A stretch of DNA of 35,335 nucleotides from Deltaproteobacteria bacterium (lineage in GTDB: Bacteria; Desulfobacterota; Deferrimicrobia; Deferrimicrobiales; Deferrimicrobiaceae), in the NCBI GenBank assembly GCA_030668225.1, contig DAOUUI010000007.1:1-35335 (forward strand), in the 5' to 3' direction. The position numbers and the translations under genes were made by a program. A model generated the notes under the pieces. The model searched no databases and was not told where the DNA came from. It was given only the letters and a program-made list of their open reading frames with translations. Shown in pieces: positions 4,198 to 20,147 of the stretch (position 1 is its first letter; every line of letters starts with the position of its first letter).

Positions 4198-4673
4198 GCA
4201 GGATCCGCCGGATCGAGGCAAAAGACCGGGAGGCGATCCGGAGCCTCATCGAGGGGACGAAAGCGTTCAAGGCGCACGAGGTGGAGGTGGCGATGGAACT
4301 CGTCGACATCGCCCTTACGCAGCCCGTGCAGGACGACTACCATCCGTTCGTCCTGGCCGAGGAGGATGGCGGGATTGTCGCGTACGCCTGCTTCGGCAAG
4401 AACGAGATGACCGCCGCCACCTTCGACCTGTACTGGCTCGCCACCCGCGCCGACCGGATGGGGAAGGGCTACGGGCGCACGATCGTCTCCTTCGTCGAGG
4501 AGGAGATTCGGCGGCGGGGAGGCCGCCTCCTCGTGATCGAGACGTCCTCGAAAGAGTCCTACGGCGATACGCGGGCGTTCTACGAAAAGATCGGCTGTAC
4601 CCTCGGCGCGCAGCTCCCGGACTACTACGATGAAGGGGACGACAAGCTGATCTACCTGAAACCCCTGAAGTAA
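4194..4673 (+). CDS. GNAT-family N-acetyltransferase
   Basis: MSRIRRIEAKDREAIRSLIEGT...; acetyl-CoA-binding region RADRMGKGYGRTIVSFVEEEIRRRGGRLLVIETSS...ARAFYEKIGC-like. ATGA overlap with the preceding stop. Confidence 0.85.
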   Translation: MSRIRRIEAKDREAIRSLIEGTKAFKAHEVEVAMELVDIALTQPVQDDYHPFVLAEEDGGIVAYACFGKNEMTAATFDLYWLATRADRMGKGYGRTIVSFVEEEIRRRGGRLLVIETSSKESYGDTRAFYEKIGCTLGAQLPDYYDEGDDKLIYLKPLK

Positions 4674-4674
4674 A

Positions 4675-7600
4675 TTACCGACTGCCCCCGTCGGGGATTC
4701 TTTCCTGGCGGCCCACATCGAACGTCTCACCCGTTTCCACGTACCAGACAAATCCGCGGGCAGGGACGTTCCATGCCTCCGAGAGGATCTCCATGTACCC
4801 CCGAACCTGTTCCGCGTAGGTCTCCTCCTGCTCCCTGTCCCGCTTTCCCGTCTTGTAGTCGATGACCCAGTGCTCCCCGGAGGCGATTCCGTCCTTTCCC
4901 GCCGCCCTCATCGGAAACCGGACGACGAGGTCGGCACGCTCCTGCTTCGACCATCCTCCCCGGCACGAAAGCATCGGGAGTTCGGTCCCGACCAGGACCG
5001 CACGGCAAAGATCCCGGTAGATCCCGCTCGCCACGATCGTGCGGCAAATCTTCCGCCATCGCTCCTCCTCCCCGTCACCCCACCGGACGGGGGAGGATCC
5101 GGGGGGAGGCCACGGGGCGAGGACCGGCGGGGCCGCCTCGAGAGCAAGGTGAACCTTGTCGCCAAACTGCCTGCCGCGCCCCCTTTCGTAAAATTCCTTG
5201 AGCGTCACCGTCGCAAGAAGCAGCGGAGGCGGCTCGGGGGTATTGGGGGTCCACTCCTTCGCGAAGGACAGGTCGGGAGGAGACGCCGGGGGAGAAGCGG
5301 CAACCGGGAGGGGCGATGATACCGCAACCTGGAGCAAGTCGCCGCCGGGGTCGTCCGGAGAGCGCTCGGAAACAAATTTACGCTTTTCCCCGGAAAACCC
5401 CGTGACCTCGCACCGGGCCGCCTCCCCGTCCGCTGCGCGGGACAGCCCGGCATGCAGCGATTCCTTAAGGACGGACCCTCTCCCCTTTGCCCCTTCCACG
5501 AGGAAAAGCCTGTCGCGTGCGCGGGTGGCTGCGACGTAGAGGAGGCGTTTCTCCTCCGCGTCCTGCTTCTTCCTTTCCCACCTTTCAAACGTTACCGTCG
5601 TTGCGCCCCCGGGAACCTGCCGGAACGCGGAGTAGGTCCGAAAACCCGGGAAGATCACCGCCGAAAGCCCGCGTACACGGTCCACCCGCAGGCCCTCCGG
5701 CGGTTTCTTTCCCCCGCGTGCCAGGTTGGCGAGGATCACCACCGGAAACTCCAGTCCCTTCGACAGGTGGATGGTGGAGATGCGCACGGCATCCTCCTTC
5801 TCCTCGAAGGAAGGGAACTCGTGCTCCGGCCTCTCTTCCTCCGTCTTCCTCCGGATCTCGGCGAGAAACGCCTTGACGGAACCCCTGGCCCCCCACTCGA
5901 AACTTCGGGCCAGCTCGGCGGCTTTGGCCAGATTCGCAAGGATCCTTTCCCCCTCGGGAAGCCGCGCTGCCACGAACTCCACGCCGGACTCCCGGAAAAG
6001 GTCCGCCAGAAGCTCCGGAAGGGACGCCCTTCCCCGTCGCGCGGAAAGCCTCGCAAGCAGGGAGAGCGCATCCCTTGTCCGCGGGGAAGAACCGTCCTCT
6101 CCCCTTGCAAGGACAGGCAAAATCTCCTCGTCCGACAGCCCGAAAAAGATCGTCTTGAGCGCAGCGTACCGGGCCGACGGGTCCGCGGGAGCGTCGATGG
6201 CGGAAAGCACCATGCGAAGGTCCTGCACCTCCTGTCTCACGAAAAACCCTTTCCGCGACGGGACCACGTGGGGAATCCCCGCCTTGTTCAGGGCGTCCCG
6301 GTACGAAGCCAGGACTTCCCCCCCCGTATCGGACCGGTACAGTACGGCGATATCACGATACGAAGCCGCTCGCTCCGGGGCTCCGACCTTATCCCTCACT
6401 GCCACCTTTCCCGCAATCTTCCGGATGAGCCCGCATAGAAATTCCGGTTCGGGAACCTCTTCTCCCAGGGAGAAGAGCGTCACGGGGGCACTCTCTCCCG
6501 CATCCTCCCGGTGGGGGACGACCGGGGAGTACGCGGGCTGGAAGTCCTCCTCCCCGGACAACACGTGGCCGAACAGACCGTTGATGGAGGCGATCAGGTC
6601 CGGACGGCTCCGGAAGTTGCGAACGAGGCCTATGGCTTCCCCTCCGCGGGCAATGAGCTCCTCCCGGAACCGGTGGTACACCTGGACGTCCGCCCTGCGG
6701 AACCCGTAGATGGACTGCTTCGGGTCGCCGACCAGAAAGAGTCGTCCGGCCCCCGACAGGGAGGAAGAGGCTTGAGCCGCCCCGCTTTCCACGTTCCCCG
6801 CAGAACCGCCGCCTGTCGAGAGAACGTTCAGCATCCCGGCCTGCAGGGGATCGGTGTCCTGGAATTCATCCACGAAAATGTACCGGAAACGCTGCGACAC
6901 CCTTTCCGCAACCTCCCGGTTGCCGCACAGAAGCCGGTTGGCGCGAAGCAACAGGTCCATGAAATCGAGCCTGCTCCCCTTTGCCTCCTCGTATGCGCTG
7001 GCCGCGACGCGGGATCGCTCGACGAGAAACCGGGCGGCCGCGTCACCCGACGGGACCTCCGCAAGCTCCCTCCAGAACCCTTTCAGGACGTCTCTCGTTT
7101 CCGCAAGCGTTGCGCCCGGCGGCATGGGGAAAAGCTTCCTGCTCCTCGTGCGGTCGGCACGGAACCCGAAGGCGGACATCCCGTCACGGGCCAATGCGCA
7201 GGCGGCGTCAAGGTCGTCCCTTTCCACCGCCTCCCAGGCCCGGGAAAGGATTCCGAGGGCCGCCTCGAAAACCGGGGTCATCTCGTGGCTTCGGTCGGTG
7301 ATCCCGCCGACGAAATCCCGAAACCACCCGGCCGCGCCGGCATATTCGCGTCTTGCATAATCGAGGAAATCGGACGGGGTCCCGAAATCGAGCGGGCCCT
7401 CCCCGAGCAGGTCGCGCTGGTAAAGACACAGCCGACGGATCATTCCGAAGACCGACTCCTGGTTTGACGTCCGGGAGAGGACACGTTCCCACATCGGGTC
7501 CGTTTCCGGTCGCCCGAACTCGGACCGCAGGAATTTCCGGAACGCGTCGTCCCAGGCATCGGACGCCTCGCCTTCCGGGATGACCTCGAAACGGGGGTCG

Positions 7601-8037
7601 ACGCCCGCCTCCGCAGGGAAGGAGAGCAGGATCCGCCGGCAGAAGGAGTGAAACGTGGTGACCGAGAGCCTCCCCACGCCGTCCACCATCTCCTCCACCC
7701 GTATCCGGAGGTCTGTCGGCACGGCATAGCCGTCGACCGGGACCCGCACGAGGGAATTCCACGAAAGGACCTGGTCCCGGATTTCGTCCAGCGATTCGGA
7801 GGACCGGCAACTGGATAACAGGAGCTCCCACCCCTCCACGACCCGTGATTTCATTTCGGCCGCCGCCTTCTCGGTAAACGTCAGCAGAAGCACCCGGTCC
7901 GGCAGCAGCTCCTTCTTCGCAAGAAAAAGGTTTGTCACGCGGGCGATGAGGGTGGCCGTCTTCCCCGTGCCGGCGGAGGCGTCCAACGCCATGTCGCGGG
8001 AAAAATCCGTGACGGCTACGTACCGGTCGCGTTCCAT
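4675..8037 (-). CDS. addA: UvrD/Rep-type helicase with C-terminal PD-(D/E)XK nuclease, AddA/RecB-like
   Basis: Walker A (DASAGTGKTATLIARV), motif II FVDEFQDTDPLQ, GDPKQSIYGFRRAD, VRISTIHLSKGLEFPVV, LLYVAATRARDRLFLV, nuclease WVIDYKTGKRDREQEETYAEQVRGYMEIL. Likely start MERDRYVAV. Confidence 0.85.
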   Translation of the reverse strand: MERDRYVAVTDFSRDMALDASAGTGKTATLIARVTNLFLAKKELLPDRVLLLTFTEKAAAEMKSRVVEGWELLLSSCRSSESLDEIRDQVLSWNSLVRVPVDGYAVPTDLRIRVEEMVDGVGRLSVTTFHSFCRRILLSFPAEAGVDPRFEVIPEGEASDAWDDAFRKFLRSEFGRPETDPMWERVLSRTSNQESVFGMIRRLCLYQRDLLGEGPLDFGTPSDFLDYARREYAGAAGWFRDFVGGITDRSHEMTPVFEAALGILSRAWEAVERDDLDAACALARDGMSAFGFRADRTRSRKLFPMPPGATLAETRDVLKGFWRELAEVPSGDAAARFLVERSRVAASAYEEAKGSRLDFMDLLLRANRLLCGNREVAERVSQRFRYIFVDEFQDTDPLQAGMLNVLSTGGGSAGNVESGAAQASSSLSGAGRLFLVGDPKQSIYGFRRADVQVYHRFREELIARGGEAIGLVRNFRSRPDLIASINGLFGHVLSGEEDFQPAYSPVVPHREDAGESAPVTLFSLGEEVPEPEFLCGLIRKIAGKVAVRDKVGAPERAASYRDIAVLYRSDTGGEVLASYRDALNKAGIPHVVPSRKGFFVRQEVQDLRMVLSAIDAPADPSARYAALKTIFFGLSDEEILPVLARGEDGSSPRTRDALSLLARLSARRGRASLPELLADLFRESGVEFVAARLPEGERILANLAKAAELARSFEWGARGSVKAFLAEIRRKTEEERPEHEFPSFEEKEDAVRISTIHLSKGLEFPVVILANLARGGKKPPEGLRVDRVRGLSAVIFPGFRTYSAFRQVPGGATTVTFERWERKKQDAEEKRLLYVAATRARDRLFLVEGAKGRGSVLKESLHAGLSRAADGEAARCEVTGFSGEKRKFVSERSPDDPGGDLLQVAVSSPLPVAASPPASPPDLSFAKEWTPNTPEPPPLLLATVTLKEFYERGRGRQFGDKVHLALEAAPPVLAPWPPPGSSPVRWGDGEEERWRKICRTIVASGIYRDLCRAVLVGTELPMLSCRGGWSKQERADLVVRFPMRAAGKDGIASGEHWVIDYKTGKRDREQEETYAEQVRGYMEILSEAWNVPARGFVWYVETGETFDVGRQERIPDGGSR

Positions 8038-8039
8038 CG

Positions 8040-11000
8040 TCAACTCTCCCTCCCCGGGCGGAACCTGGCGATCTTGCGAAACGCAGGCTCCGTGATCACC
8101 CGGCGCACAAGCGCCTCCGTCTCCTCCTTCGTCCCCTCGAAGGATGGCGACACGCGGCAGTGATCCTTGAAAGGACAGGCGTCGCAATACCGGGGGGGGT
8201 ATTTCCCCGCGAAGGTGAACCGGTGATGGGGAAGCGGAGGAAACGTTCCCGAGGAGACAAGACCAAGCCATTCGGCAAGCGCGGCGGCCCACTCCCCGCG
8301 TATTTCCTCCCACTGGGAGCCGGTAACCGTCACGGTCCTGACCCCTCCTTTCAAAAAGAAGAGGGAGGCGCGGACGGAAGGGGAAAGGGTCCCGGCGAAC
8401 ACCAGGTAGACCGGGATCTGGTGGGAAAGGCCGTTGCGGATCCCGTCGATGGGAGCCTTCTCGTTCTTCCCGTCGCGGTATTTGTAATCGATGATCTCCG
8501 TCTCGCCGGATGGGCCGCGGTCTACCCGGTCCACCCTCCCCCGGAACGACGGGAGGCCTTTTTCCCCGACCGTTTCGAAGGCACGCTCCACGTCCTCGAC
8601 ACGGGTTGTATCAGGGGACTCCTGCCGGGAGCGCTCCCACTCCACGAAGCCCGCGACGTCCGTTTCGATTCCCCGGCACTGGAGACGGAAAAGACCCGGC
8701 AGGCCTGTCGGGTTTTCGCGCGCGAACCGCTCGAACGCCCTGCGCGAGGCAACCGTGGGGTCCCCCCAACCTTTCCCTTCTGCAACGTCCCTTCCGATCC
8801 GGCGAAGGACGTCATGCAGGATCGTCCCCATCTCCTGGGGGTTAAGGGAAAGACCCTCCTCCGGCTCCTCGACCGGCAGGAGTTTCACCATGTACCGGAG
8901 AAAATACCGATAGGGGCACTTCGTCAGTTCGTCCAGAGCAGAGGCACTCGCAACCCGGGGGACCGGGTTGCCGGTCCACGGGTCCGGAAAGAGCGCGTTT
9001 CCCGCTCCCCTGTGGCCCCACGCCGAAAGGGTCCCCGCAATCCGGTGCCAGGGTACCCCTTCCGCCCGGCCGGACGGCCGGAGTCCTTTGCGCCAATCCC
9101 GGAGCTCGGTCTCCCGCAGGCTCAGCGGCCCCGGTCCGGAAAGCGCCGCGAACGGGGAGCGGGGCAGGGAAAGGATGGAGATCCCGGACTCCGCCGCCCA
9201 ATCCTCCGAAAACACACCCGGACCGGTAAACTGCGAGATCAGCAGAAGCAGGTACCGGGACGGCCTTCTTGCGGTCCCATCCGCATCGGCCCGAAGCACG
9301 CTGTATGCGACCTCTTCCCTCGACGATGCAGCCGGGAGCGAGAACAGGAGTTTTTCCTCGGCGGCGTTCCCTCGCCGAAGCGACAGTGCATCGGGCATGC
9401 CCGGCTGCCGCGAAAGCCGGTTCAGTTCCGCGCGGTCTTCGTCGGGCAGGAGGGGATCTTCTTCGATCTGGGCCGGGACCAGATCCTCGTTTACGGAAAG
9501 AAAGAGAATCCGGTCGGCGGTTACCCCCCGCAGGGAGAAGAGGTCACCGGCGATCACCGCCCCCGGGGTGCGCATCGCCCCCCTTTCCCCCAGGAACAAC
9601 CGCTGCCCGGATAAAAGCGTGCGGAACCATGGCAGGGGACCCTCGGCCGGGGGCCACGGTACTACCCTCTCCGGGATACGTTCGATGTCGTCCAAAAGCG
9701 CAAGAAGCGCCGACACGGCCCGGCGGTCGCGTTCCGCCTCCCCGGTATCGTCGGTCGTCATCCGGAATTCGGAAAGCAGCAGGGAACGTATCGCCCTGGC
9801 AAGGTCCCGGTATCCGCCTGCCTCTCTTACCGGGCGCAGGGATTCCCTGAGAGACCGGATCTCGCCTTGCAGGAGCGCCAGCTGCGCCTTCCGATCTCCC
9901 TCTCCTTCTTCCGGCTCCTCCCCGGTCCTCCGCAGACCGCTTACGGCAAGGCGCTTTTCCCAGTCATCGCCCGACACCACCATGAGTTCCCGGCTCCACA
10001 CGTCCCACAAGTCGGGACGCGGCGCAACGCCCGATCCCTCTCCCGCCTGCCGCCGGTAGGGAGAGGAAAGGACATCGATCACTTTTCGCCTCGGGAAACT
10101 CTCTTCTGAAGTCTCGATCATCTGGAGCAGGACGCGGACCGGGGGAACGGACGCGAGTGGAACGGCAAGCCTTCCCGCCGTCCTGATCCCGTACTCCGCA
10201 GCAATCCTTTCCCACGCGGGGACCGCATCCTCCGCAAAGTTTCGGCAAACAAGGAGAATATCCTCGTCCGGGCGGCTGTCCAGCCACTGCCTCACTCTTC
10301 TTGCCGAAAGCCGGAACTCCCCTTCCTCATGGGGAGCAGAGAGTACGGGGAAAGGGAACGGATCGGAAGTTTCCGGCGGGAAAGGGGAGAAGGTTCTCTC
10401 CCGGAGAGTCAGGACCCCGGGAGAAGCGGCATCCCGGAGAAATTCCACGTTCCCCTCGAATGCACGAAGCAGCCGCTCCCACGTGAGCGCAGCGTAGGCA
10501 TAGGCGGGAGAGATCGCTCCATCCTCGCCAAAGACGGCAGGAAAGTAGACCGCTTCGAGCAGGCCGCTTGCCAGGAGGGCGTCAACGAGCGTCCACTGCA
10601 GGCGGGTGAAGTCGTAGAATCCGTAGAGGGTGGCGCGGAACGGATACCCGGGCTGCTCGAACCCGGCGACAGCCTCCTGGAAGATCCTCCGGCGGGACAT
10701 CCCGCCTGCGGCCGTGATCTTCCTCTCGACGGCGCGGAAGAGAAGGCGCCACTCGCCCCACCGCCTGGCCTTCGAACCCTTCCCTTGCGCGCGGGCCCTC
10801 CCTTCCGCCTCGCGAAGCGCCTCTTCCCCCAGCCACCCTTCCTCGAAGTCCGCCATGGTGCGGGAAAGGGCAGGCACGAACCCGGGCATCGCGGAAATCG
10901 CCGCGAAGTCCCCATAGCCGCCTCCGTAAACCTCCCGGACCGCGGCCATCATGGCCGCGGATGCATGCGCGGGCGGGAGCTCGCAAGGGAAGATTCCCCG

Positions 11001-11258
11001 GTGCTTGAGCAGCCGTACGGTGAAATCGTACAGCGTCATGATCGAGGAGCCGGCGGCGCTCCCCTCCCACTTGGCCGCCAGGCGTCGCAGGAGGTGCTCC
11101 CTGAGCTCGTTGGACGGCACGAGGAGCACATCCTCCCGGCCGGGTGAGCGGCCGAACGCCTCCGGGAGGCGGGAGAGGAGCCTTTCTTCGATAGCCGGGA
11201 AGGGACCGGCAAAGAGGCTGGATATTGCTTGATTACGCTCCTCCATGGTCCTCCCCAT
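8040..11258 (-). CDS. addB: AddB-like PD-(D/E)XK nuclease/inactivated helicase subunit
   Basis: Adjacent to addA-like gene; C-terminal nuclease motif GETEIIDYKYRDGK and Fe-S-type cysteines CDACPFKDHC. Start at MGRTMEERN (11258) or MEERN (11246); the longer ORF is over-extended. Confidence 0.78.
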   Translation of the reverse strand: MGRTMEERNQAISSLFAGPFPAIEERLLSRLPEAFGRSPGREDVLLVPSNELREHLLRRLAAKWEGSAAGSSIMTLYDFTVRLLKHRGIFPCELPPAHASAAMMAAVREVYGGGYGDFAAISAMPGFVPALSRTMADFEEGWLGEEALREAEGRARAQGKGSKARRWGEWRLLFRAVERKITAAGGMSRRRIFQEAVAGFEQPGYPFRATLYGFYDFTRLQWTLVDALLASGLLEAVYFPAVFGEDGAISPAYAYAALTWERLLRAFEGNVEFLRDAASPGVLTLRERTFSPFPPETSDPFPFPVLSAPHEEGEFRLSARRVRQWLDSRPDEDILLVCRNFAEDAVPAWERIAAEYGIRTAGRLAVPLASVPPVRVLLQMIETSEESFPRRKVIDVLSSPYRRQAGEGSGVAPRPDLWDVWSRELMVVSGDDWEKRLAVSGLRRTGEEPEEGEGDRKAQLALLQGEIRSLRESLRPVREAGGYRDLARAIRSLLLSEFRMTTDDTGEAERDRRAVSALLALLDDIERIPERVVPWPPAEGPLPWFRTLLSGQRLFLGERGAMRTPGAVIAGDLFSLRGVTADRILFLSVNEDLVPAQIEEDPLLPDEDRAELNRLSRQPGMPDALSLRRGNAAEEKLLFSLPAASSREEVAYSVLRADADGTARRPSRYLLLLISQFTGPGVFSEDWAAESGISILSLPRSPFAALSGPGPLSLRETELRDWRKGLRPSGRAEGVPWHRIAGTLSAWGHRGAGNALFPDPWTGNPVPRVASASALDELTKCPYRYFLRYMVKLLPVEEPEEGLSLNPQEMGTILHDVLRRIGRDVAEGKGWGDPTVASRRAFERFARENPTGLPGLFRLQCRGIETDVAGFVEWERSRQESPDTTRVEDVERAFETVGEKGLPSFRGRVDRVDRGPSGETEIIDYKYRDGKNEKAPIDGIRNGLSHQIPVYLVFAGTLSPSVRASLFFLKGGVRTVTVTGSQWEEIRGEWAAALAEWLGLVSSGTFPPLPHHRFTFAGKYPPRYCDACPFKDHCRVSPSFEGTKEETEALVRRVITEPAFRKIARFRPGRES

Positions 11259-11316
11259 TGTAATCGTTCCCGCACAGTCGGAAAATGGGAACGAAGGAAC
11301 AGGAGGAACGGGGGAG

Positions 11317-12093
11317 ATGAAGCCGCCGACGAAACGGGAGACGAGAGACCAGTTCGCGGGGGTCGCCAAACGGTACCGGACGAGCATCGACCACAGTGAC
11401 GCCGACGATAGGGAGATCCTCCGTTCACGCCTCGCCATGGACCCCTCCCACCTCCTTCTCGACGTGGCCACGGGAGGCGGGCACACCGCGGCGGAGTTTT
11501 CCCCCGACGTTCGGAAGGTCGTCGCCTCCGACCTCACGCCGGAAATGCTTTGCGAGGCGAGAACGCTGTCCGCCGAGCGGAAATGCCGCAACATGTCGTT
11601 CGTCGCGGCCGACGCGGAGAGCCTCCCCTTCGCATCGGAAGCGTTCGACCGCGTCACCTGCCGCATCGCGCCGCACCATTTCCCGGACCTCCCGGCGGCC
11701 GTGAGGGAGCTCCTGCGCGTTACCCGCTCCGGGGGGCTTGTCGGCATCATCGACAGCGTGGTTCCCGACGACCCTGCTCTCGACGCATTCCTCAACGGGG
11801 TAGAGAAGGTACGCGACCCTTCGCACGTGCGCAGCTACCGGATCGAGGAGTGGAACGAGGTTCTTGCGTCGGCGGGCCTTTTCCTCCTGCACGTGTCCCG
11901 CGCGTGGAAGGAGCACCCGTTCGCCGAATGGGTGTCCCGTACCGGCAAGCCGCAGGAGGTGCAACGGGAGATCGAATCCCTGTTCCTTACGGCGTTCCCC
12001 CGGGCCAGGGATTACTACCGCGTAAGGATCGAAAACGGGAAGGTGGTTTCCTACTCGGACGAGAAGGGGATCTTCGTCGGGAGGAAGACGTAA
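11317..12093 (+). CDS. Class I SAM-dependent methyltransferase
   Basis: MKPPTKRETRDQFAGVAKRY...LLDVATGGGHTAAEF...VVASDLTPEMLCEAR...VAADAESLPFASEAFDRVTCRIAPHHFPD; UbiE/MenG-like layout. Confidence 0.88.
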   Translation: MKPPTKRETRDQFAGVAKRYRTSIDHSDADDREILRSRLAMDPSHLLLDVATGGGHTAAEFSPDVRKVVASDLTPEMLCEARTLSAERKCRNMSFVAADAESLPFASEAFDRVTCRIAPHHFPDLPAAVRELLRVTRSGGLVGIIDSVVPDDPALDAFLNGVEKVRDPSHVRSYRIEEWNEVLASAGLFLLHVSRAWKEHPFAEWVSRTGKPQEVQREIESLFLTAFPRARDYYRVRIENGKVVSYSDEKGIFVGRKT

Positions 12094-14399: not shown

Positions 14400-15590
14400 A
14401 TGACCCGTCCCCGGCTTCACCGAAACGTCGTCGCCCTCGGACTGGTATCCCTCCTCACCGACCTCTCCGCACATATGATCTATCCCCTTCTTCCCGTGTT
14501 CCTCACTGTCACCCTCGGGGCGGGCCCCGTCATCCTCGGGATCATCGAGGGAGTTGCGGAAGCCACCGCCTCGCTTCTCAAGCTCTTCTCGGGTGTTTGG
14601 TCGGACCGGCTCGGGAGAAAGAAACCGCTCGTGCTCGCGGGGTACTTCCTATCGTCGGTGGCAAGGCCGCTCATGGGACTTGCCTCTACATGGGGGCACG
14701 TGCTCGCGGTGCGATTCTCCGACCGGATCGGAAAGGGGATCCGAGCGTCGCCGCGGGATTCCCTTCTCGCCGCCTCCGTTGCCGTGGACGACCGGGGCCG
14801 GGCGTTTGGACTGCGGAAGGCGATGGACCACCTGGGGGCCGTGTTCGGACCCGTCGTCGCCTTTCTCCTTCTCGCGGGGGCCGGACTGTCCTACAGGTCG
14901 GTCTTCTTCCTCGCGGCGATTCCCGGGGTCGCATCTGTCGCGGCAATCCTGTTCCTGGTGCGGGACACCGGAATACCGGCACCCCGGCACACCGGGGAAT
15001 CGCTTTCCGACGGGAGCTTTCCCTCCCCTTTCCGACGCTACCTGCTGATCGTCTCCCTGTTCACCCTCGGCAACGCAAGCGACGCATTCCTCATCCTGCG
15101 GGCGGTGGACTCAGGAGTGCCCGCCGCCTGGGTGCCGCTGCTCTGGGGGGCGTTCCACTTGGTGAAGTCGTCCTTCTCCACCCACCTGGGGATCCTCTCC
15201 GACCGCTGGGGCAGGAAACGCCTGATCGTTGCCGGATGGATTCTGTATGCGGCGTGCTACGCAGCCTGGGGAATGGTGGAAGGAGTAGCTTGGATGGTGG
15301 GGCTCTTCCTCGTCTACGGGCTCTACTCGGCGGCCACCGAGGGCGCGGAGCTGGCGCTGGTTGCCGACTTCGTCCCGCCTTCGCTGCGGGGGACCGCCTT
15401 CGGATTGTTCCACCTCGCCGTGGGGATTTCCGCCCTGCCGGCAAGCATTCTGTTCGGCGCCCTGTGGGCCACGTTCGGCGCGCAGGTCGCCTTCGGGGTA
15501 AGCGCGGGGCTCGCGATCGCGGCGTCCGTTCTTTTGCTCCTGCTTACCCTCCCCAGTGCACCTCCGGAGAGCGGCCCGGCGCCTCGATGA
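14400..15590 (+). CDS. MFS transporter
   Basis: 12-TM-like hydrophobic profile; IIEGVAEATASLLKLFSGVWSDRLGRKKPLVLAGY and RFSDRIGKGIRASPRDSLLA signatures. Confidence 0.9.
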   Translation: MTRPRLHRNVVALGLVSLLTDLSAHMIYPLLPVFLTVTLGAGPVILGIIEGVAEATASLLKLFSGVWSDRLGRKKPLVLAGYFLSSVARPLMGLASTWGHVLAVRFSDRIGKGIRASPRDSLLAASVAVDDRGRAFGLRKAMDHLGAVFGPVVAFLLLAGAGLSYRSVFFLAAIPGVASVAAILFLVRDTGIPAPRHTGESLSDGSFPSPFRRYLLIVSLFTLGNASDAFLILRAVDSGVPAAWVPLLWGAFHLVKSSFSTHLGILSDRWGRKRLIVAGWILYAACYAAWGMVEGVAWMVGLFLVYGLYSAATEGAELALVADFVPPSLRGTAFGLFHLAVGISALPASILFGALWATFGAQVAFGVSAGLAIAASVLLLLLTLPSAPPESGPAPR

Positions 15591-16590
15591 CCTTGAGGAT
15601 GAACGGACGGCGGCGGCCCGGCACCTCACCGAACCGCAGATCGGAGAACATCAGGATCGTTTTCTCTCCCGCGTAAGAGGTCTGCACTACAGGGAAGCGG
15701 GCGAACCACAGGTATGTTCGCACGTCCGGGATGTTCTCGACTTCCCTCACTTCCGGCACGTCCCGCCCCCTGCGGACGCGCTGTTTCCAGGAAACCGCAC
15801 CGGAAAACGGGTCCACCTCGGCCCGGATGTAGGTCTCCCCGTCGTCGATGAATCCGTTCCACGCGAACGGACCCGCCGGGAGAGGATACCGTCCCGGGCG
15901 GTCTGTAATCGGCAGGTTCGGCATCCCGTCCATCTCCTGCTGCGCCCACGCCTCCCTGACCAACCTGACGGCCGAAAGACCGTTGCCGATGTGAACTTCC
16001 CCGAGGCGGGGCAGAGCCGAGGAAGAGACTACGCGGACCCCGTGCTGCTGCGCCGCGCTTCGCACCGCATCCTCCACCCGGAGATGAAGGAAGGTCGCGA
16101 ATCCCACGTAGACGCAGAGCGCAACCATCGCGACCTGCGCAGGCGCGGCCCGGCGGCGCGACAGGAGAAGACCCGCCACGATGATCCCGGTAAAGACCAG
16201 ATCCACGACAAACAGGATGTCGAAGGACACACGGGCATCGTAAAACGGCTGGAAGATCTGCGTCCCGTAGGAATTGAGCAGGTCCAGGGCGATGTGCGAG
16301 AGCTGGCCGAGAAGCACAAGCAGGTAGAGTTTTTTCAGGTCCTTCCACTTCCCGAACTTGTAGAGCAGCAGGGCAACCAGGAGGGAAGTCACGGCGATAC
16401 CGGCGAACCCGTGCGACACTCCCCGGTGAAGCCTGAGATACATCTCGCTTCCGAGAAGGGACATCACGTTGTCGGCGTCGGGCAGGAGCGATCCTACGAT
16501 CACTGCTGCCGTTGCCTCCCGCCCGCCTCTATCCATGGGAATGGCCCGGGAGATGAGCCACCCCGTAAGTCCGTGCGTAACCGTGTCCAT
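15544..16590 (-). CDS. YdjM/DUF457-like membrane-bound metal-dependent hydrolase
   Basis: MDTVTHGLTGWLISRA...VGSLLPDADNVMSLLG...LHRGVSHGFAGIAVTSLLVALLL...LSHIALDLLNSYGTQIFQPF. Confidence 0.85.
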   Translation of the reverse strand: MDTVTHGLTGWLISRAIPMDRGGREATAAVIVGSLLPDADNVMSLLGSEMYLRLHRGVSHGFAGIAVTSLLVALLLYKFGKWKDLKKLYLLVLLGQLSHIALDLLNSYGTQIFQPFYDARVSFDILFVVDLVFTGIIVAGLLLSRRRAAPAQVAMVALCVYVGFATFLHLRVEDAVRSAAQQHGVRVVSSSALPRLGEVHIGNGLSAVRLVREAWAQQEMDGMPNLPITDRPGRYPLPAGPFAWNGFIDDGETYIRAEVDPFSGAVSWKQRVRRGRDVPEVREVENIPDVRTYLWFARFPVVQTSYAGEKTILMFSDLRFGEVPGRRRPFILKVIEAPGRSPEVHWGG

Positions 16591-16602: not shown

Positions 16603-16761
16603 TTATATCATAGTGCGCGGGTCAAGAATCTTTTCGCTCTCGACCTCCGGAAGAACCTTTTTTCCTCGGAGGACAGCCCGGATCGTCCTGCCCGAATGGT
16701 ACGCCTCGTGGGTGATCTCCGCCGCCTTGTCGTAGCCGATCTTGACCGCCAGGGGAGTCAC
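16603..16761 (-). pseudogene. Remnant of a fumarase (FumC) 3' end, about 53 C-terminal residues in frame with stop
   Basis: Encodes VTPLAVKIGYDKAAEITHEAYHSGRTIRAVLRGKKVLPEVESEKILDPRTMI*, versus intact FumC VTPLAVKIGYDKAAEIAHEAYHSGRTIREILMERKILPPEEIEKILDPGKMV*. An 85-bp core (16677-16761 vs 17788-17872) has 4 mismatches. Confidence 0.85.
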
Positions 16762-17222
16762 TTTTGCATGCGGGGATCGAAGGTAAACGGCTCCGGGCTT
16801 CCGATCCGGATATCGCGGAACTCCGGGTGGGACGGATTGAGCAGGAAATTGAATTCTTCCGGGACGAGGACAGACGGCACGCGCAGAACGACAGAGGTTC
16901 CCGCCTTGGCCCACCTTGTTCCAAGGTCTTTCGTTGCGTCGGGCGGCGGCTCGTCCCTCCAGTTCGCGGGGAGCTCTTCGACGGGAATCGACTCGACTCT
17001 TACGTCGTCCGGGATCTCTATCCGGAAGGACACGAACGACAGTGCGAAGCGTGCCTTTCCCAGGTGGATGAACAACTCGAGGGCGGCCAAGGCCAAGCTG
17101 TCGCTTGCATACACGACCGCCGTCCCCCGATTGTTCCACCGACCGCCCGCAAGGCGAGCCCCCTCGCCCAAAAAAGCGTCGCCCGCATGCCGCGCCTTGA
17201 CGATCCGCCAGGCGCGGATCAC
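16758..17222 (-). CDS. RES-domain toxin (RES/Xre-type toxin-antitoxin)
   Basis: MIRAWRIVKARHAGDAFLGEGARLAGGRWNNRGTAVVYASDSLALAALELFIHLG...; typical RES N-terminus (GGRWN, YAS, ALE). ATGA overlap with upstream antitoxin. Confidence 0.9.
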   Translation of the reverse strand: MIRAWRIVKARHAGDAFLGEGARLAGGRWNNRGTAVVYASDSLALAALELFIHLGKARFALSFVSFRIEIPDDVRVESIPVEELPANWRDEPPPDATKDLGTRWAKAGTSVVLRVPSVLVPEEFNFLLNPSHPEFRDIRIGSPEPFTFDPRMQK

Positions 17223-17695
17223 GACAGGACGCTGTGCTCGATGCGAAGGAGAAGGTCCTCCACCTCCCGCGACCCGGCCTCCGTGCCCATCAACTCAAGG
17301 GGAATCCGGTTCCCCAGGCCGACCTGGCGCTCCCGGAGCCAGTCGCGTGCGGCATCCGCGCTTTCCAAGACCTCCTCCGCCAACGCGAACAACCGCGCAA
17401 TCCGATACAGGCGATCGCTCGTGGCGGGGGAAAGCCGCCGCAAGGGCGCACCGCGCAGCCGACCGATGGTCTTCTCGCTGACCTGAAGCGCAAAGGCGAC
17501 CTCCCGGGTAGTCAGAGCCAGAGCGTCCTTTACGCGCTCCAGGACCGGTTCGGGGAAACCCATCTCGATCAAATGGGCCATATCCATCGCCCCGGAAACT
17601 CTCTTCCCGAGGACCTTTCGTCCTCCGAGTACCTCCACGACATCCCTGCTTCCCATCTCCGCCCTCCAGACATTTGTCTTTATTATATCAGACAA
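17219..17695 (-). CDS. Xre/MbcA/ParS-type antitoxin (DUF2384)
   Basis: LALTTREVAFALQVSEKTIGRLRG...LSPATSDRLYRIARLFALAEEVL...ARDWLRERQVGLGNRIPLELMGTEAGSREVEDLLLRIEHSVLS; C-terminal toxin-binding signature, paired with RES gene. Confidence 0.9.
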   Translation of the reverse strand: MSDIIKTNVWRAEMGSRDVVEVLGGRKVLGKRVSGAMDMAHLIEMGFPEPVLERVKDALALTTREVAFALQVSEKTIGRLRGAPLRRLSPATSDRLYRIARLFALAEEVLESADAARDWLRERQVGLGNRIPLELMGTEAGSREVEDLLLRIEHSVLS

Positions 17696-17698
17696 ATG
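17671..17698 (-). promoter_or_regulatory. Candidate autoregulatory operator/promoter of the toxin-antitoxin operon
   Basis: Perfect 9-bp inverted repeat CATTTGTCT-ttattatatc-AGACAAATG; the reverse strand of the spacer provides TATAAT. Confidence 0.7.
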
Positions 17699-17713
17699 AT
17701 GGTCAGCATACGA

Positions 17714-19096
17714 TCAAACCATCTTTCCCGGATCGAGGATCTTCTCGATCTCCTCCGGGGGGAGAATTTTCCTCTCCATGAGGATCTCCCGGATCGTCCT
17801 GCCCGAATGGTACGCCTCGTGGGCGATCTCCGCCGCCTTGTCGTAGCCGATTTTGACCGCCAGCGGGGTCACCATGGCAAGACTCTGCTCGATCAACTCC
17901 TCGCACCGCTTCCTGTTCGGAGTGATCCCCGACACGCACCGCTCCGAAAGAAGTGTGGCCGCGGAGGCAAGGATCCCGATCGATTCCAACAGGTTGCGCG
18001 CCATCACCGGGAGCATGACGTTTAACTCCAGCACCCCCAGCGATCCGCCAAGGGTCACCACCGCGTCGTTGCCGATAACCTGCGCCGATACCTGGATCGC
18101 CATCTCCAGGATGACAGGGTTCACCTTCCCCGGCATGATGGAGGACCCGGGCTGCAGGGAGGGCAGAGTGAGCTCCCCGATCCCGCACCGGGGGCCCGAC
18201 GACAGAAGCCTGATGTCGTGTGAGATCTTCATCAGGGAGGCGGCGATCCCCTTGAGCGTACCGCTGGCCGCGACGAGGGGGTCCTGCGCGCCGATCGCCT
18301 CGAACCGGTTCTCCGCGGGCCGAAAAGAAATCCCGGTGGCGGCGGCGATCTCGGCGATCGTCCTTACGCCGAATTCCGGGTGGGCATTCAGGCCCGTTCC
18401 TACCGCGGTCCCCCCGAGGGGGAGTTCCTCGAGGTCGGCGAAAGCGGAATGCACCCGCCGGATCCCATGGTCGATCTGTGACGCGTACGCGGAGAACTCC
18501 TGCCCGAGCGTGACCGGAATGGCATCCTGCAGATGGGTTCGCCCAATCTTCAGAATATCGGAGAACTCCTTCGACTTCCCTGACAGGGCGTCCCGCAGGT
18601 GCGAAAGCGCCGGGACGAGTCTCTCCGACAGCTCCCGCCGCGCCGCGATCCGGATCGCGGACGGAACCACGTCGTTGCTGGACTGGCACCGGTTCACGTG
18701 GTCGTTGGGGTGAACGGGGGAGTTTCCCCCCAGGGGCTTTCCAAGAAGTTCGTTGGCCCTGTTGGCGAGCACCTCGTTGACGTTCATGTTGGTCGAGGTG
18801 CCCGAGCCGGTCTGGTAGACGTCGAGGACGAACTGGTCGTCGAAATTCCCCTCCAGCACCTCGCGGGCGGCCCGCGAAATCGCTTCCGCCAGAGGGGGGT
18901 CGACAAGTTTCAGCCCCGCGTTGACCTCGGCGCCGAATCCCTTGATCATCGCGGCGGCATGGACGACCGGAAGCGGCATCCGTACCCCGCTCACCGGAAA
19001 GTTCTCGAAGGCCCGCTGTGTCTGCGCCCCGTAGTACGCATTCGCCGGGACGCGAACCTCCCCCATGGAGTCTTTTTCCGTTCGGAAACCGCCCAT
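17714..19096 (-). CDS. fumC: Class II fumarate hydratase
   Basis: GSSIMPGKVNPV signature, SGTSTNMNVNEVLANRA, NDHVNRCQSSNDVVPSAIRIAA, GGTAVGTGLNAHPEF; full length 460 aa. Confidence 0.96.
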   Translation of the reverse strand: MGGFRTEKDSMGEVRVPANAYYGAQTQRAFENFPVSGVRMPLPVVHAAAMIKGFGAEVNAGLKLVDPPLAEAISRAAREVLEGNFDDQFVLDVYQTGSGTSTNMNVNEVLANRANELLGKPLGGNSPVHPNDHVNRCQSSNDVVPSAIRIAARRELSERLVPALSHLRDALSGKSKEFSDILKIGRTHLQDAIPVTLGQEFSAYASQIDHGIRRVHSAFADLEELPLGGTAVGTGLNAHPEFGVRTIAEIAAATGISFRPAENRFEAIGAQDPLVAASGTLKGIAASLMKISHDIRLLSSGPRCGIGELTLPSLQPGSSIMPGKVNPVILEMAIQVSAQVIGNDAVVTLGGSLGVLELNVMLPVMARNLLESIGILASAATLLSERCVSGITPNRKRCEELIEQSLAMVTPLAVKIGYDKAAEIAHEAYHSGRTIREILMERKILPPEEIEKILDPGKMV

Positions 19097-19905: not shown

Positions 19906-20045
19906 GGCTTCCCCTCCTCCCGGCGAGGATAAGCGATGCCGCGGAAGTCTCAAGCGCTGGCGGCAAGGCGTACATCGTTCCGTTTGACATGCATTTTATC
20001 CGGAATTTCCCATTCCTCAAATTGGATATTATACGGGCAGCACAA

Positions 20046-20059
20046 TTGACGTACATCAA
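20046..20059 (+). promoter_or_regulatory. FNR/DNR (CRP-FNR superfamily)-like binding site
   Basis: TTGAC-GTAC-ATCAA, one change from TTGAT-N4-ATCAA. Candidate -10 elements TATCCT (20082-20087) or CATAAT (20091-20096) downstream. Confidence 0.6.
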
Positions 20060-20147
20060 TGCGCACGGCGAACGGGACGTCTATCCTTGCCATAATATGG
20101 CTTTGCCAACTCGAGGGGAGTGTCCCCGATAACGATAGGGAGGAACG

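Follow-up and report, generated by a model that had tools for sequence, protein, structure and literature searches.

A RES/Xre toxin-antitoxin module between fumC and a duplicated fumC 3' end, and its probable entry on homologous DNA

Introduction

How a toxin-antitoxin pair can come to lie between an intact housekeeping gene and a second copy of that gene's own 3' end, leaving both neighbours whole, is the question raised by one locus in a 35,335-nucleotide stretch of DNA from a member of the Deferrimicrobiaceae (hereafter, the window). An earlier note on this DNA had read the arrangement either as an integration that re-supplied the end of its target gene or as recombination between fumC alleles. 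The locus is known from one metagenome-assembled genome, a draft of 266 contigs with contamination listed as 0, and was compared with 24 genomes of the family and with a 395-genome sample of the phylum.

Results

Anatomy of the locus

The intact fumC gene (17714-19096, minus strand) encodes a class II fumarase of 460 residues, with Pfam Lyase_1 and FumaraseC_C domains and 90% identity to the corresponding protein of relative G004. It is followed on the same strand by the Xre/RES pair, in total spanning 16758-17656, and then by a 165-bp fumC 3' remnant (16603 to ~16766, minus strand) of about 52 codons, in frame and with its own stop codon, which by itself still matches FumaraseC_C at 1e-15. 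A ydjM-like gene comes next (15544-16590, minus strand; Pfam YdjM, 2.5e-33). Open reading frames and Pfam matches thus confirm the toxin-antitoxin module between intact fumC and a duplicated fumC 3' end that had been described from the letters alone.

The xre antitoxin gene (17219-17656, minus strand) presumably starts at the ATG at 17656, behind a GGAGGG sequence; as a mechanical open reading frame it covers 17219-17695 (minus strand), its TTG start at 17695 falling within the operator. Its product matches Xre_MbcA_ParS_C (1.6e-15) and Xre-like-HTH (9.8e-9), and is 61% identical to the G018 protein. The RES toxin gene (16758-17222, minus strand) overlaps xre by 4 nt, and its product matches Pfam RES (1.6e-30) and the ParT structure 6d0h (E = 9e-32). 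The window protein ends in FDPRMQK*, at the same endpoint as the FDPRMWK* of its nearest family relatives (G018 and G008), so that the toxin is complete and its stop codon (16758-16760), correctly placed by the earlier note at the edge of the duplicated segment, is its natural end.

Upstream of xre, a palindrome with perfect arms, CATTTGTC-n12-GACAAATG (17671-17698), contains TATAAT and forms a putative operator/promoter; comparable palindromes are found ahead of xre in G018, G008, G233, G211 and G254 and at loci L063 and L088. Considering that the Xre-RES pair of P. putida represses its own promoter through such a palindrome (PMC12204516), the module is predicted by analogy to be autoregulated. 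Likewise, NAD+ depletion is reported for free RES toxins of the family in the account given in PMC8065639, and the RES protein here would act on NAD+ when free of Xre. Domains, antitoxin-first order, gene overlap and palindromic promoter are all those of known type II RES/Xre modules (ParT/ParS, COG5654/COG5642); the module itself is ordinary, and only its insertion is notable. RES was absent from the viral contigs searched, and every plasmid RES protein was less than 60% identical to that of the window.

Duplicated core and diverged tips

The two fumC 3' ends form a repeat at 1111-bp spacing, with 78% identity over 168 nt that is very unevenly distributed. An 85-bp core, present within intact fumC (copy 1, 17788-17872, minus strand) and at the start of the remnant (copy 2, 16677-16761, minus strand), differs at only 4 positions (95% identity), while identity falls to 59% over the next 74 nt, a difference in mismatch rate with p = 3e-8. 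Both the near-identical core and the strong divergence beyond it, as claimed earlier, are therefore borne out. The last 36 bp of the core (17788-17823) are identical in both copies, and the core match is not due to chance, since the best other ungapped match to it within the window reaches only 45/85. Each copy is 82-86% identical to G001, G002, G004 and G009 but 95% to the other copy, and at 14-15% divergence 4 or fewer mismatches between them would be expected with P = 0.003-0.005.

Ancestry was followed at discriminating sites, that is, positions at which G001 and G002 agree and differ from G004. Their states are nearly the same in both cores, G001/2-like and G004-like sites standing at 7:5 in copy 1 and 6:5 in copy 2. 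These features are most simply read as a duplication of 85 bp of native fumC, both cores being of native type.

Native and foreign fumC ends

The stretch at 23.8-25.9 kb of the window is 92-94% identical to G001 and G002 and 82% to G004, and because of this closeness the native type is most likely G001/2-like. The end of the remnant (16603-16676, minus strand), which includes its stop codon, is of that type, with 80% identity to G001/G002 against 64% to G004 and 14 G001/2-like sites to 3 G004-like ones. So are ydjM and its spacer (153 sites to 57), ydjM being 80-81% identical to G001/G002 versus 72% to G004. The last 74 nt of intact fumC (17714-17787, minus strand) show the opposite pattern, with 85% identity to G004, 64% to G001/G002, and 17 G004-like sites to 2. 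As to which C-terminus represents the ancestral allele, a comparison called for in the earlier note, the remnant groups with the congeners G001 and G002 and the intact tip resembles G004; most likely, the remnant is the displaced native fumC end and the intact gene carries a foreign tip. In addition, the remnant carries Ser where aligned relatives have Ile (Val in G024), a substitution that may be taken as a sign of lost constraint.

The optimum for a single breakpoint lies at 17834-17828, positions 17801-17789 being nearly equal, with a gain in lnL of about 8. On the upstream side no edge of the foreign DNA is visible: beyond the core, fumC is 86% identical to G001 and G004 alike, and the MFS and ATPase genes favour neither.

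The fumC-ydjM junction in relatives

The gene order ATPase-MFS-ydjM-fumC-carbonic anhydrase is largely conserved across relatives of the same family. An empty site, with ydjM within ~50 bp after fumC, was found, as the earlier note had suggested looking for, in 14 of them (G001, G002, G004, G009, G007, G012, G013, G014, G018, G023, G008, G016, G022 and G006); the junction of G021 also appears empty, its contig stopping there. Among the family loci inspected, none had a tandem full-length fumC, and the junction was occupied only in the window and in G017, which belongs to another genus. The G017 insert (L056, 8439-9269) comprises an RHH-like gene (8439-8651), an assignment that is weak and falls just below the Pfam cut-off, a PIN gene (8684-9088) and a fragment of a 4Fe-4S ferredoxin domain (9141-9269), and no fumC duplication lies beside it.

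Similar modules and scars elsewhere

No further copy of the compound structure, a module integrated at fumC, was present in the family (24 genomes) or in the phylum sample (395 genomes); the RES/Xre modules flanked by fumC tails that the earlier note had suggested looking for were thus found in neither. A donor with the order fumC-xre-RES was likewise not found in them. Gene-derived direct repeats flanked none of the other RES loci among the 52 screened, the only repeats detected being those of an insertion sequence in G003, and a broader repeat screen over 576 kb returned a handful of unrelated repeats. Both screens indicate that a scar of the fumC type is not typical of RES modules.

Three candidates were set aside. 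The G003 locus (L037/L108, 7290-8821), of the same genus, holds a RES/Xre module whose RES is 41% identical to that of the window, between 131-bp direct repeats that are 98% alike; these were interpreted as the left ends of an IS3-like element, and the locus was rejected as a second case. On G009 contig C31, 45 bp that match the foreign tip belong to a thioredoxin-like C-terminus and were rejected as chance. Finally, four genomes of family f9, within the same phylum, carry a distantly related RES/Xre module immediately upstream of fumC (L109 of G233, 4277-6687, plus L110, L111 and L112), RES being degraded in G313. The f9 order xre-RES-fumC was rejected as donor on sequence, RES being 42-44% and fumC 58-59% identical, and appears to be a second, independent neighbourhood with fumC.

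Discussion

A route of entry for the cassette

The best reading of this locus is an insert formed by the foreign fumC tip, the operator, xre and RES, which lies between two 85-bp copies of the native target. We consider it probable (at roughly 0.6) that the cassette entered the fumC-ydjM junction on DNA of a related species, with a homologous anchor at fumC and illegitimate joining at the RES stop. In the donor, the cassette would presumably have lain downstream of the related species' fumC. The incoming fragment, formed by the related fumC 3' end followed by xre and RES, would have paired with resident fumC, and a crossover inside the 36-bp run of identity, or at its end, would have given the intact gene the donor's 74-nt tip. 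At the other end, the RES stop would have been joined illegitimately to a point in fumC lying 85 bp upstream of the anchor. This joint would have copied an 85-bp piece of native fumC and displaced the native tip, leaving both flanking genes whole.

Features at the distal joint are consistent with this route. There, the RES stop codon runs directly into fumC (AAGTGACTCC). The end of RES in G008 reads AAGTGACACC and fumC at the counterpart position reads GGTGACCCC / ATGGTGACCCC; GTGAC is common to RES ends and fumC, in a comparison that reaches to the end of RES and includes no donor sequence beyond it. This motif (16757-16761, minus strand; fumC counterpart 17868-17872) is thus a plausible candidate microhomology. 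The genome also encodes ComEC and DprA, which is compatible with DNA uptake and does not prove it. Counting against the proposed route, neither the family genomes nor the phylum sample yielded a fumC-xre-RES donor, and the diagnostic foreign tip is only 74 nt long and comes from one draft genome.

One homologous and one illegitimate junction, as proposed here, characterise homology-facilitated illegitimate recombination (HFIR; PMC3240628), a process also put forward for Vibrio effector modules (PMC5361080). As in HFIR, foreign genes were gained, a displaced 3' gene end was left behind and a foreign homologous tract, the G004-like tip, is found on one side of the insert; experimental HFIR joints show 3-10 bp of microhomology (PMC3240628). 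On the contrary, the usual by-product of classical HFIR is the deletion of recipient DNA (PMC3240628), whereas the window locus shows an 85-bp duplication instead. Such duplications recall restriction-modification genes, which insert with long target duplications, of the order of 100 bp (Nobusato et al. 2000, as summarised in PMC3874152). Within the scope of that summary, those insertions also share with this one a selfish-type pair lacking mobility genes, an empty site kept by relatives and a direct duplication of comparable length. They differ in that the pair here is a toxin-antitoxin one and one flank carries the tip of a foreign allele, 74 nt of which separate core copy 1 from the cassette; this tip implies that the cassette was accompanied by homologous DNA when it entered.

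In open-access text, no toxin-antitoxin pair was found to insert with a long target duplication, and no title or abstract pointed clearly to fumC as a site of integration. The toxin-antitoxin version with a foreign tip would therefore seem to be a new variant of a pattern known for restriction-modification genes, which it would extend to another type of gene pair. Its scar is readable, since the two junctions, the native end that was displaced and the foreign tip all survive. One specific route, through flanking homology and microhomology, can thus be tested by comparing genomes and by transformation assays.

Alternative explanations

The main rival, which results in the same topology, starts from a piece of donor DNA (the 3' end of fumC with xre and RES) that lost its ends, re-circularised by joining the RES end to fumC and then integrated through one RecA crossover in the core. 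Most products of an E. coli assay, duplications of 109-950 bp, were explained in this way (PMC3240628). Such a circle should have left donor-type states in one core, to one side of the crossover. Both cores show instead the mixture of the native type (7:5 and 6:5; the donor tip has 17 G004-like sites to 2), which makes this route rather unlikely here, even if the objection is weak should the donor core have resembled the native one. Site-specific integration at the fumC 3' end, by a recombinase acting in trans or since lost, with the element re-supplying the gene end, would also account for the foreign end of the intact copy, for the displacement of the native end and for the close match of the cores at the two edges. 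No recombinase, transposase or integrase was, however, detected in the cassette or the window by a Pfam scan of all but six of its open reading frames, which weakens an attachment-site reading. Moreover, the core was not found in viral contigs, both cores appear native and no second element occupies fumC in the 24 family genomes or the phylum sample, so that this mechanism is improbable. Hence, a supplied foreign tip and a displaced native end are supported and, of the two options offered in the earlier note, recombination between fumC alleles fits better, while the protein-gene attachment site finds no support.

The two remaining explanations appear very improbable, to a similar degree. One is a tandem fumC duplication or second allele, of which an internal deletion left only the final 52 codons, the cassette lying between the two copies; the remnant being in frame with its own stop agrees with it, as does the unrelated RES module just upstream of fumC in family f9. 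Nevertheless, no inspected family locus has tandem full-length fumC genes, the two tips differ in their nearest relatives, and the deletion would need to have ended exactly at the RES stop codon. The other is that two strains were joined into a chimera when the draft metagenome bin was assembled; the 266 contigs and the 36-bp exact run at the core/tip boundary speak for it. A chimera could alter the fumC body attached, but not the RES-remnant-ydjM junction; the ~5 bp shared at the RES/fumC joint would not suffice for a k-mer join, and contamination is listed as 0.

The junction as a landing site

The proposed entry by homologous anchoring and illegitimate joining concerns a junction that resembles relA-mazG and folA-apaH, plastic loci of enterobacteria where toxin-antitoxin pairs also lie between co-directional housekeeping genes that most relatives keep uninterrupted (PMC7167474, PMC7232551). 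As at those loci, differing pairs occupy one junction, RES/Xre in the window and RHH/PIN in G017; no readable scar of the entry route is reported for them, whereas the fumC-ydjM locus of the window keeps one. That fumC-ydjM might be a recurrent landing site, at which unrelated pairs spread without an integrase through a short anchor from the neighbouring gene and microhomology, leaving host genes intact, is a doubtful proposition. If true, toxin-antitoxin pairs on chromosomes would have a general means of moving.

Other features of the neighbourhood

About 5 kb from the insertion, the window encodes an AddAB-like large UvrD-helicase and a PD-(D/E)XK nuclease (4675-11795). On the other side of fumC, two NorB/NorC-type nitric oxide reductase-like genes lie in G002 (L049, 4738-6778) between carbonic anhydrase and a DUF1858/DUF542 gene, encoding a 442-residue haem-copper-oxidase-like protein and a 233-residue cytochrome c-like one. 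The window lacks this pair (19954-20147), while several other relatives have a similar gap of 2.2-2.4 kb there. In G013, 71-bp imperfect direct repeats edge the NorB/NorC-type segment, and deletion between them is possible.
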